This document shows, piece after piece, positions 16,937 to 21,526 of a stretch of DNA of 38,699 nt; the stretch's first letter is position 1; every line of letters starts with the position of its first letter. The position numbers and the translations under genes were made by a program. The notes below the pieces were generated by a model. That model was not told where the DNA came from. It did no database searches and saw only the letters and a program-made list of their open reading frames with translations. Origin of the DNA: Vulcanimicrobiota bacterium (lineage in GTDB: Bacteria > Vulcanimicrobiota > Vulcanimicrobiia > Vulcanimicrobiales > Vulcanimicrobiaceae); the NCBI GenBank assembly GCA_027306785.1, contig DAHUZB010000026.1, positions 1 through 38,699 of the forward strand, read 5' to 3'.

Positions 16937-16979
16937 ACGAAGAAGCGCCCGTCGGGATTCCCGGCGGGCGCTTCTTCGT
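16937..16979. terminator. Long bidirectional hairpin between convergent genes
   Basis: A nearly perfect 43-nt inverted repeat (ACGAAGAAGCGCCCG on the left arm, CGGGCGCTTCTTCGT on the right, continued inward by CGGGA/TCCCG with one wobble) sits 18 bp after the metalloprotease stop and 12 bp before the SDR stop. It probably ends transcription from both sides, although no strong T-run follows. Confidence 0.75.
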
Positions 16980-16991
16980 GCATCGCGGCAC

Positions 16992-17708
16992 TTACCAGCC
17001 GACGACGCCCTCTTCGTCGAAGAAGCCGCCGTTCGGACCGTCGTCGTCGAGGGTCGCGAGGCGTACGATCACGCGTGCCGCCTGCTCCGTGGTGCGCGGA
17101 CCGCTGAAGCCGTTCAGCGCGGTCGATGTATAGCCCGGATCGGCCGCATTGATCTTGAATCCGCGCTCGCCGAGTTCTTTGGCAAAGCACAGCGTCACGG
17201 CGTTTAACGCCGATTTCGACGTCTGGTAGGCGAGAGCGTTGATCGCCGCGGAAGAATACGACGGATCGGTACGGTTCGCGAACGAGCCGAGCCCGCTCGA
17301 GACGTTGACGATGCGCGGATGCGCCGAGCCGTACATGAGCGGGAGCAGCATCTGCGTGACGGTGATCGCGGCGAAGACGTTGGTTTCGTACGTGGCGCGC
17401 ACGAGTTCGAGCGGAAGCGCGCTCGGTGGCGCGCAATCGAGGAGAATGCCCGCATTATTGACGAGGACGTCGAGGGTGACGTTCCGGGCTTGGAGCGCGC
17501 GCACCACGCGCGCGACCGATGCGGGATCGCAAACGTCGAGCGCGTGCGGTTCGATGCCGTCGTGCCGTGAGGCGAGAGCGGTGAGGTCGGCTGCGGTGCG
17601 GGCGCAGGCGATGACGCGGTAGCCGCGCGCGGCGAGGGTAAGCGCAACTTCGGCGCCGATGCCCTTGCCGGCACCGGTGACGAGCGCGGTGGTTGGAGTG
17701 GTCTGCAT
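16992..17708 (-). CDS. Short-chain dehydrogenase/reductase (SDR)
   Basis: 238 aa. Classical SDR features: nucleotide-binding TGAGKGIG near the N-terminus, NNAG (VLVNNAGI) after the fourth strand, a catalytic Ser in VNVSSG and the YxxxK pair in AYQTSK. It should oxidise or reduce a carbonyl/alcohol with NAD(P)(H) in the cytoplasm; the residues do not show the substrate. Start ATG 17708 is chosen because a MerR-type promoter (TTGACT, 19-bp spacer, TAGCCT) ends 7 nt before it. There is no ribosome-binding site, so the message may be leaderless. It is divergent from the merR gene and very probably its target, as in the aldehyde-responsive AdhR-type regulators that control neighbouring dehydrogenases. 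Confidence 0.88.
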   Translation of the reverse strand: MQTTPTTALVTGAGKGIGAEVALTLAARGYRVIACARTAADLTALASRHDGIEPHALDVCDPASVARVVRALQARNVTLDVLVNNAGILLDCAPPSALPLELVRATYETNVFAAITVTQMLLPLMYGSAHPRIVNVSSGLGSFANRTDPSYSSAAINALAYQTSKSALNAVTLCFAKELGERGFKINAADPGYTSTALNGFSGPRTTEQAARVIVRLATLDDDGPNGGFFDEEGVVGW

Positions 17709-17715
17709 GTGCGTG

Positions 17716-17746
17716 AGGCTACGACATGGAGTGAACTCGAAGTCAA
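17716..17746 (-). promoter_or_regulatory. MerR-type promoter for the SDR gene
   Basis: Minus-strand TTGACT (17746-17741) and TAGCCT (17721-17716) are separated by 19 bp, the long spacer typical of MerR-activated promoters. The spacer holds an imperfect dyad (GAGTTCACTC). The -10 ends 7 nt before ATG 17708, so the transcript would start at or beside the start codon. Confidence 0.7.
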
Positions 17747-17750
17747 GCGC

Positions 17751-17781
17751 TTGACTTGGAGCGCGCTCCAGGTGGTAGACT
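17751..17781 (+). promoter_or_regulatory. MerR-type autoregulated promoter of the merR gene
   Basis: TTGACT (17751-17756) and TAGACT (17776-17781) are separated by 19 bp. The spacer contains the perfect palindrome GGAGCGCGCTCC (17758-17769), which resembles operators of AdhR/NmlR-type MerR proteins. The -35 shares an 18-bp perfect palindrome, AAGTCAAGCGCTTGACTT (17740-17757), with the opposite promoter. The ATG follows the -10 by 6 nt with no room for a ribosome-binding site. Confidence 0.8.
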
Positions 17782-17787
17782 GCGCGC

Positions 17788-18204
17788 ATGAGCGCGGATT
17801 TGAAGACGATCGGCGAGGCCGCCGATGTGACCGGCGTCACCGAAGATACGCTTCGTTTCTACGAAAAGATCGGCGTGCTGCTCGAGGTCGAGCGTAACGA
17901 GAGCGGCCATCGGCGATATTCCGATCGAGCGCTCGCCTGGATCGCTTTGGTCGTGCGGCTTCGCTCGACGGGGATGACGCTCGAGTCGATTCAAGCGTAC
18001 GCCGAGCTCGCGCGCCGCGGAAGCGAGACGATTCCGCAGCGGCGCGAGATTTTGATCGAGCACCGCGATCAGATCGCGGCCGAGGCGAGACGCCTGAGCG
18101 AGATCGTCGCGCTGATCGATCGCAAAGTTGCGGGTTACGACGAGATCCTGCGCTCGGGTATCATACCGCAGGTCTCGCCGTGCGAAGTCGCGCCGCCCGC
18201 ATAG
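17788..18204 (+). CDS. MerR-family transcriptional regulator (AdhR-like)
   Basis: 138 aa. The N-terminal winged helix (about 5-75) has the family hallmarks TIGEAADVTGVTEDTLRFYEKIGVL and RRYSDRALAWIALVVRLRSTGMTLESIQAY, and a dimerising helix follows (ILIEHRDQIAAEARRLSEIVALIDRKVAGY). The short C-terminus has one Cys (PQVSPCEVAPPA), a possible electrophile sensor, but no metal-binding Cys cluster. MerR proteins twist promoters that have a 19-bp spacer, and both promoters in this intergenic region have one. It probably activates the divergent SDR gene and regulates itself. Confidence 0.9.
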   Translation: MSADLKTIGEAADVTGVTEDTLRFYEKIGVLLEVERNESGHRRYSDRALAWIALVVRLRSTGMTLESIQAYAELARRGSETIPQRREILIEHRDQIAAEARRLSEIVALIDRKVAGYDEILRSGIIPQVSPCEVAPPA

Positions 18205-19315: not shown

Positions 19316-19379
19316 GAGCACATCATCGCGAGCGCACCCTGAGCACGGCTTGGGGCGATTCACAGATTCACCTAAGCCG

Positions 19380-19479
19380 CCCTTCGACAAGCTCAGGGTG
19401 ACACCCGAAATGGGAAGCTCAGGGTGACACCCGAAATCGGAGGCTCAGGGTGTCCTTCGACAGGCTCAGGATGACACGG
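19380..19479. repeat. Cluster of dispersed CCCTTCGACAAGCTCAGGG-type repeats
   Basis: A full unit (CCCTTCGACAAGCTCAGGG then TGACA) occupies 19380-19403. Two partial units ending AGCTCAGGGTGACAC / GGCTCAGGGTG and a further unit CCTTCGACAGGCTCAGGATGACA follow. The same core recurs at 38144-38239 and in tandem at 38555-38699, so it is a genome-dispersed intergenic element. Here it lies between the YHYH lipoprotein and the aldo/keto reductase stop. Confidence 0.85.
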
Positions 19480-19484
19480 GATGC

Positions 19485-20465
<981 letters not shown>

Positions 20466-20584: not shown

Positions 20585-21040
20585 ATGAGGCGGATCTACG
20601 CGTTCCTTGCCTGTGCCATGTTCATGGCTTGTGCCGCGCTCCCGGGCAGTGCGTACAATGCGGCAAACGGCGAGCTCGTTACGTATAACCCGACGCAGTA
20701 CCAGGTGTGGATCACGATCTACAACGGCTTCCGACATCAGATGGGCTCTCGTTGGCTGCAGCCGTATCAAACGGACTATTGGAATAACTGCTGCTATGCG
20801 GCGGGCTCGATTTATTACGTGCGCGCCGAGGTGAAGAAGACCGAGAACGGCCACATGTCGCAGATCGCCGATACGACGATTCAGGTGGTCCCGCGTCTCT
20901 GCAATCAACCGGCCGGACAGGGAAAGACGGGCGATCCGTACGGATATGGGCGCGTTGTGTTGCGGCACAGCGGCGGCAATCATTTCTATTGGGATCGCGA
21001 CGACCTCGTGCGAAACCCCGGAAACACGTGCTTGTTCTAA
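20585..21040 (+). CDS. Small secreted protein of unknown function, tandem copy 1
   Basis: 151 aa. I do not recognise the family. A signal peptide (MRRIYAFLACAMFMACAALPGSA) precedes a mature domain of about 128 residues with four Cys (adjacent pair in NNCCYA, then RLCN and a Cys near the end) and many aromatic residues (YQVWITIYNGFRHQMGSRW, GSIYYVRAEVKKTENG, NHFYWDRDD). The pattern suggests a disulphide-bonded beta-sandwich outside the cytoplasm. GGAGG at 20573-20577 sets the start. A second copy starts exactly 480 bp downstream. Confidence 0.8.
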   Translation: MRRIYAFLACAMFMACAALPGSAYNAANGELVTYNPTQYQVWITIYNGFRHQMGSRWLQPYQTDYWNNCCYAAGSIYYVRAEVKKTENGHMSQIADTTIQVVPRLCNQPAGQGKTGDPYGYGRVVLRHSGGNHFYWDRDDLVRNPGNTCLF

Positions 21041-21064: not shown

Positions 21065-21526
21065 ATGAAGCGAATCTACGCGATCCTTGCCTGTGCCGTG
21101 TTCGTGGCCTGTGCCGCGCTCCCGGGCAGCGCCTACAATCCCGCGAACGGCCAACTCGTAACGTACAATCCGACGAACTACCAGGTGTGGATCACGATTT
21201 ACAACGGATTCCGTCATCAGATGGGGTCGCGTTGGCTTCAGGCACATCAGGTCGACCTTTGGAATAATTGCTGCTACGCCGCAGGTTCGATCTACTACGT
21301 GCGTGCCGAAGTGAAGAAGACCGAGAACGGGCACATGTCGCAGATTGCCGACACGACGATTAAGGTGGTCCCGCGTCTCTGCAACATGCCCACGGAGCCC
21401 GGAAAGACGGGCGATCCGTACGGATACGGGCGCGTCGTGTTGCGCCACAGCGGCGGCAACCATTTCTATTGGGACCGCGACGATCTCGTGCGAGAACCCG
21501 GAAACCGCTGCATCAGTAATCGGTGA
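21065..21526 (+). CDS. Small secreted protein of unknown function, tandem copy 2
   Basis: 153 aa, a close paralog of the preceding gene. Signal peptide, Cys positions and nearly all mature residues are shared (for example EVKKTENGHMSQIADTTI and RVVLRHSGGNHFYWDRDD are the same). Differences concentrate in PYQTDY/AHQVDL, QPAGQ/MPTEP and the last six residues. The shared leader (GGAGGTTTTATC before ATG) shows that the duplication included the ribosome-binding site. ATG 21065 is chosen for that reason over the upstream in-frame ATG 21044. Only 24 bp separate it from copy 1, so both are probably on one message. Confidence 0.8.
   Translation: MKRIYAILACAVFVACAALPGSAYNPANGQLVTYNPTNYQVWITIYNGFRHQMGSRWLQAHQVDLWNNCCYAAGSIYYVRAEVKKTENGHMSQIADTTIKVVPRLCNMPTEPGKTGDPYGYGRVVLRHSGGNHFYWDRDDLVREPGNRCISNR

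Follow-up and report, generated by a model that had tools for sequence, protein, structure and literature searches.

A probable double MerR-type promoter in the gap between divergent merR and SDR oxidoreductase genes of a Vulcanimicrobiota bacterium

The window considered here is a stretch of 38,699 nucleotides from a Vulcanimicrobiota bacterium (assembly GCA_027306785.1, contig DAHUZB010000026.1). It encodes a regulator of the MerR family and an SDR oxidoreductase in genes that point apart, and the 79-bp gap between them, read directly, holds two promoters placed back to back (Table 1). Their -35 hexamers stand 4 bp apart inside a perfect 18-bp palindrome, which is the element common to both promoters. 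Both directions have the geometry of a MerR-type promoter (a 19-20 bp spacer with an internal dyad): the spacer measures 19 bp on each side, and the dyad pairs at 9 of 10 positions on the merR side, around the core GGAGCGCGCTCC (17758-17769), and at 7 of 10 on the SDR side, which is the weaker of the two in its dyad and in its -10 hexamer, TAGCCT. The two predicted 20-bp operators are separated by 10 bp, and their centres lie 30 bp apart. An earlier sequence-only reading of this DNA, all of whose coordinates agree with the sequence base for base, had described a TTGACT on each strand, the 19-bp spacers, the two -10 hexamers and an imperfect dyad on the SDR side, and all of this is borne out; it had also taken the operators to overlap, which has to be corrected, as they are adjacent and the promoters lie back to back.

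Table 1. Coordinates of the genes, promoter hexamers and predicted operators at the merR/SDR locus (positions in the window).
Feature	Position	Strand	Basis
merR gene, 138-aa MerR-family regulator	17788..18204	+	PF13411, PF00376, PF09278
SDR oxidoreductase gene, 238 aa, divergent partner	16992..17708	-	PF00106 1.5e-40
Perfect 18-bp palindrome AAGTCAAGCGCTTGACTT, contains both -35 hexamers	17740..17757	.	direct reading
merR promoter -35 TTGACT	17751..17756	+	direct reading
merR promoter -10 TAGACT	17776..17781	+	19 bp past -35, 6 nt ahead of ATG 17788
Predicted merR-side operator ACTTGGAGCG/CGCTCCAGGT	17754..17773	+	centre 17763.5, 9/10 pairs; predicted from dyad
SDR promoter -35 TTGACT	17741..17746	-	direct reading
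SDR promoter -10 TAGCCT	17716..17721	-	19 bp past -35, 7 nt ahead of ATG 17708
Predicted SDR-side operator ACTTCGAGTT/CACTCCATGT	17724..17743	-	centre 17733.5, 7/10 pairs; predicted from dyad

Several other features lie near these genes. In brief, these include: a strong inverted repeat (GAAGAAGCGCCCG...CGGGCGCTTCTTC, 16938-16982), likely a two-way terminator, between the SDR gene and a convergent metalloprotease-like gene; a CTTCGACAAGCTCAGGGTGACAC-like repeat, present several times in an intergenic segment (19376-19480); and a tandem pair of closely similar genes (20618-21040 and 21065-21526) coding for small, secreted-looking proteins.

The regulator carries the winged-helix DNA-binding domain of the MerR family (PF13411, 6.2e-19; PF00376, 1e-15; PF09278, 1.5e-7), and the solved structures nearest to it belong to the same family, among them that of Haemophilus influenzae HI_0186, the NmlR protein. 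NmlR is also the best-scoring NCBIfam model, at 85.9 bits against a cut-off of 175. The sensing cysteine of the NmlR/AdhR clade (Cys54/Cys52) is absolutely conserved (PMC4776306), and Arg57 aligns to it in the present protein; membership of that clade was rejected on this replacement and on the score. The metal-sensing members (CueR, ZntR, CadR, MerR) were rejected as well, since the protein stays far under the NCBIfam cut-offs (CueR 57 of 147 bits, ZntR 53 of 168, MerR 48 of 151) and Cys132 is its sole cysteine, which falls short of a metal-binding set. A search of genome contigs with the MerR protein returned distant relatives only. The GC3 of the merR gene is 0.78 against a mean of 0.84 (SD 0.035), a difference that is suggestive at most.

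The double promoter is real, beyond what chance would produce. When the 79-bp gap was dinucleotide-shuffled 100,000 times, the pattern TTGACN-N18-20-TANNNT arose on some strand in 141 cases and on both strands in one. Furthermore, the merR-side and SDR-side spacers are identical at 13 of 19 positions (P 2e-5), a likeness of the operators that, with the 19-bp spacing, agrees with the proposal of the earlier reading that both promoters are of the MerR kind. A degenerate consensus of both operators, searched with up to three mismatches through the 3.14-Mb genome, found only these two sites (reversed-pattern control, 0); as the consensus was built from both, this result speaks to extra copies and not to the sites themselves.

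The mirrored layout was then sought elsewhere as two outward CTTGAC hexamers 0-12 bp apart, each with a long-spacer -10. This compact pattern occurs on both strands at one place in 3 of 149 genomes of the phylum (that of the window, G092 and G129), each time adjoining a merR gene. It was absent from 400 genomes of Chloroflexota, the phylum of Ktedonosporobacter, and from 299 of Pseudomonadota, the phylum of Caballeronia, with single-strand matches at a low level in both. A wider gap (13-40 bp) adds merR loci in G091 and G094 and also matches two non-MerR places (in G107 and G018). At the one in G018 (G018:C124:15275-15377; L164, L179), mirrored promoters with 18-bp spacers carry GTGAGTGAGCACTCAC-like dyads that are not of the MerR operator type. 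A match in G128 to a pattern specific for the operator pair lies inside a coding sequence and was set aside as chance. Because a strict dyad filter (at least 8/10 pairs) loses the weaker half of most mirrored pairs, its class counts were not treated as a census.

Together with a locus in Nonomuraea, a mirrored pair is thus found at five other merR loci (G129, G092, G091, G094 and Nonomuraea). Between the 5' ends of the two TTGAC motifs lie 4 bases in the window and G129, 5 in Nonomuraea, 9 in G092, 15 in G091 and 19 in G094. The genes facing merR, read by eye, code for a YHS-domain-like protein in G129 and for metal-ATPase-like proteins in G091, G092 and G094. Most of the divergent MerR loci examined have one operator. 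The layout is thus unusual, as the earlier reading had it, in so far as one operator prevails, and less so in view of the five other mirrored loci; it belongs to a minority two-operator layout among MerR divergons. Literature searches found no description of two-operator or leaderless MerR divergons. The merR/SDR pair itself was sought in relatives, including two genomes of the same genus, and was found in none, which leaves no orthologous spacer to compare; the best relatives of the SDR protein elsewhere have no merR nearby. The lack of the pair in both genomes of the genus makes the locus look accessory. The closest merR of the same family (42% identical; L074, 4646-6025, in G053) has a leaderless-like start and a single operator, and directly precedes an aldo/keto reductase-like gene similar to that at 19485-20465 of the window.

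These comparisons bear on the strongest competing explanation, according to which the MerR protein binds one dyad only, activates the promoter that holds it and blocks or ignores the other in the manner of SoxR, the second dyad being a decayed or chance copy. MerR divergons are described as following this rule (PMC12825309, PMC1526738), a single operator is present in the related oxidoreductase-merR divergons of actinomycetes and Priestia, and the SDR-side dyad is the weaker one, at 7 of 10 pairs. However, the likeness of the two spacers (13/19), the exact 19-bp geometry of both promoters and the recurrence of mirrored pairs beside other merR genes argue against it, and the stronger dyad would serve the regulator gene and not its SDR partner, which inverts the classical layout. 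On balance, a single functional operator is unlikely here.

The position of the -10 hexamers relative to the start codons was considered within the genome as a whole, using gene calls from a simple codon model over 715 kb and the 309 genes that were likely first in their transcript. A TANNNT motif about 12 bp ahead of the start is an accepted mark of leaderless genes (PMC3160421). Upstream of the 309 genes, the first T of TANNNT falls at -13/-12 in 15 cases against 3.5 expected from the other upstream positions (P 4e-6), and in 13 when the two genes of the window are left out (P 7e-5); this peak supplies evidence for a class of leaderless genes in this genome. It is a minority mode, since Shine-Dalgarno tetramers, present at 68 of 309 genes against 26 in the control interval, serve more genes than the leaderless signals do. 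The two genes studied here lie on the peak (first T at -12 for merR and at -13 for SDR) and combine TANNNT about 12 bp upstream with no Shine-Dalgarno at the usual distance. Furthermore, the -10 and the start are again 6-7 nt apart at related MerR promoters: (i) on both sides in G129 and Nonomuraea, (ii) on the merR side in G053, Ktedonosporobacter (L114), Tsukamurella and Actinomyces, (iii) on one side only in G091 and G092, and (iv) on the oxidoreductase side in Streptomyces, Embleya and Rhodococcus. The claim of the earlier reading that both messages are probably leaderless gains from the genome-wide peak and from this recurrence, and the prediction of leaderless merR and SDR messages is well supported on sequence grounds.

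A second alternative keeps the promoters as described and lets the messages start further upstream, or a few bases before the ATG with some other signal. A candidate for the latter is the AGGTGG at 17770-17775, 12 nt ahead of the merR ATG, which a longer message could use as a poor ribosome-binding site. In favour of leaders are the greater frequency of Shine-Dalgarno tetramers in the genome and the leaders of 10-34 nt present at some other related merR genes. Against them, the -10 hexamers sit exactly on the leaderless peak, the 6-7 nt spacing is found at many related promoters, and the upstream space is occupied by the divergent promoter, so that leadered messages appear distinctly improbable.

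As separate observations, two further places show similar elements. A gene for a GntR-family regulator (PF00392; 23185-23626 of the window), next to one for an ABC transporter, shows a leaderless-like promoter. Some 10 bp upstream of the regulator's start lies another perfect 18-bp palindrome, TAATGTACTAGTACATTA, which is probably its own operator. At locus L103 (G000:C9:97361-97377), divergent genes (95753-97360 and 97378-98007) lie 17 bp apart with a TANNNT 5-8 nt ahead of each ATG, which places two opposed -10 hexamers in the same short space.

The palindrome of the merR/SDR gap is by itself weak evidence, because the window contains three perfect 18-bp palindromes (0.15 expected), and it is largely a by-product of two outward-facing copies of CTTGACTT. 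That it is the operator of another regulator, with the likeness to two MerR promoters incidental, would suit a perfect palindrome centred between genes, which is a common repressor site, but two TTGACTT copies account for 14 of its 18 bases, and the bases between the TTGAC motifs vary in number and sequence at the other mirrored loci, so that it is not conserved as such, and this explanation was rejected as scarcely credible.

The preferred reading, with a probability of about two in three, is therefore that the gap is a double MerR-controlled divergent promoter, in which both operators are bound, both genes are switched, the polymerases exclude each other and the messages are leaderless. The encoded MerR protein would bind both operators, most likely as separate dimers; in the absence of its signal it would keep both over-long spacers inactive, and with the signal it would untwist each spacer and thereby activate both genes. 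This scheme is drawn from established MerR biochemistry, in which a long MerR-type spacer is inactive until the bound activator realigns it (PMC9909328). The merR side, having the stronger dyad, may be the more highly occupied of the two. The signal may be guessed to be a reactive carbonyl, an electrophile or a similar small molecule, given the oxidoreductase partner and the regulator's nearest relatives.

RNA polymerase usually covers about -55 to +20. Polymerases starting at 17788 and 17708 would have footprints overlapping by some 30 bp, so that only one direction could be loaded at a time, with the regulator gene and its target in competition for transcription. The two messages would begin at or beside the ATG and be translated without a leader. 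By the described rule, regulators of this family act from a single operator, switching on the target and either repressing their own gene or leaving it unaffected, whereas here a full MerR promoter is found in both directions. It is accordingly tempting, though at somewhat less than even odds, to see in this layout a distinct class of MerR bidirectional switch, with one regulator, two mirrored operators, activation in both directions and back-to-back -35 hexamers that make the polymerases alternate. If so, the output of regulator and target would be coupled through polymerase competition, and such a switch would break the published rule for MerR-family proteins at bidirectional promoters, namely that one direction is always blocked. 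The mirrored layout recurs with unrelated regulators in more than one phylum and with differing partners (SDR, aldo-keto reductase-like, YHS-domain-like and P-type ATPase-like), and the locus offers a compact natural system for testing two-way activation by one MerR protein and alternating back-to-back polymerases.

Compared with known systems, the gap departs from the classical divergons with a single operator (mer, soxRS, cad) by its two operator-like dyads, one per promoter, as far as these can be judged from the DNA. The merR-merT region of Tn501/Tn21 also has a divergent merR, a long spacer with a dyad and a regulator that touches both promoters (PMC11049809, PMC1526738), but it has one operator and partly overlapping promoters, and its merR lacks a MerR-type promoter. 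In Escherichia coli soxS-soxR, a MerR-family regulator is likewise divergent from its target across a common promoter region; SoxR has one site there, from which soxS is activated and soxR always blocked (PMC12825309), whereas the window has a MerR-type operator for each direction. In CadR divergons, such a promoter is found at the transporter gene only, and the regulator is unregulated or merely repressed (PMC1526738). The NmlR/AdhR system (nmlR-adhC) shares with the window a short MerR protein that lacks a large sensor domain, the nearest solved structures and a divergent dehydrogenase gene, and differs in that the present regulator scores far under the NmlR cut-off, has Arg57 in place of the cysteine and faces an SDR gene instead of adhC.

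Closer in architecture are the loci of Streptomyces, Embleya and Rhodococcus, with a related regulator, an oxidoreductase partner, a 19-bp spacer with a dyad and a target start 7 nt past the -10, although their single operator lies only in the promoter of the oxidoreductase gene, as does that of the SDR/merR divergon of Priestia. The most similar arrangement is that of Nonomuraea gerenzanensis (L187), where a related merR (39% identical) and an aldo-keto reductase-like gene point away from each other: two operators of the type seen in the window (TGGAGTGCACTCCA and TGGAGTGCGCTCCA, with TGGAGTGCACTCCA as the core) stand in mirror image 31 bp apart with their -35 hexamers back to back, and both starts are 7 nt past the -10. 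It differs from the window in the distance between the TTGAC motifs (5 bp, not 4), in its partner (aldo-keto reductase-like, not SDR) and in its -10 hexamers (CAGCAT and GATTCT). The back-to-back pair is thus an uncommon variant of the well-known MerR switch, present also in a few unrelated bacteria, and not wholly new.
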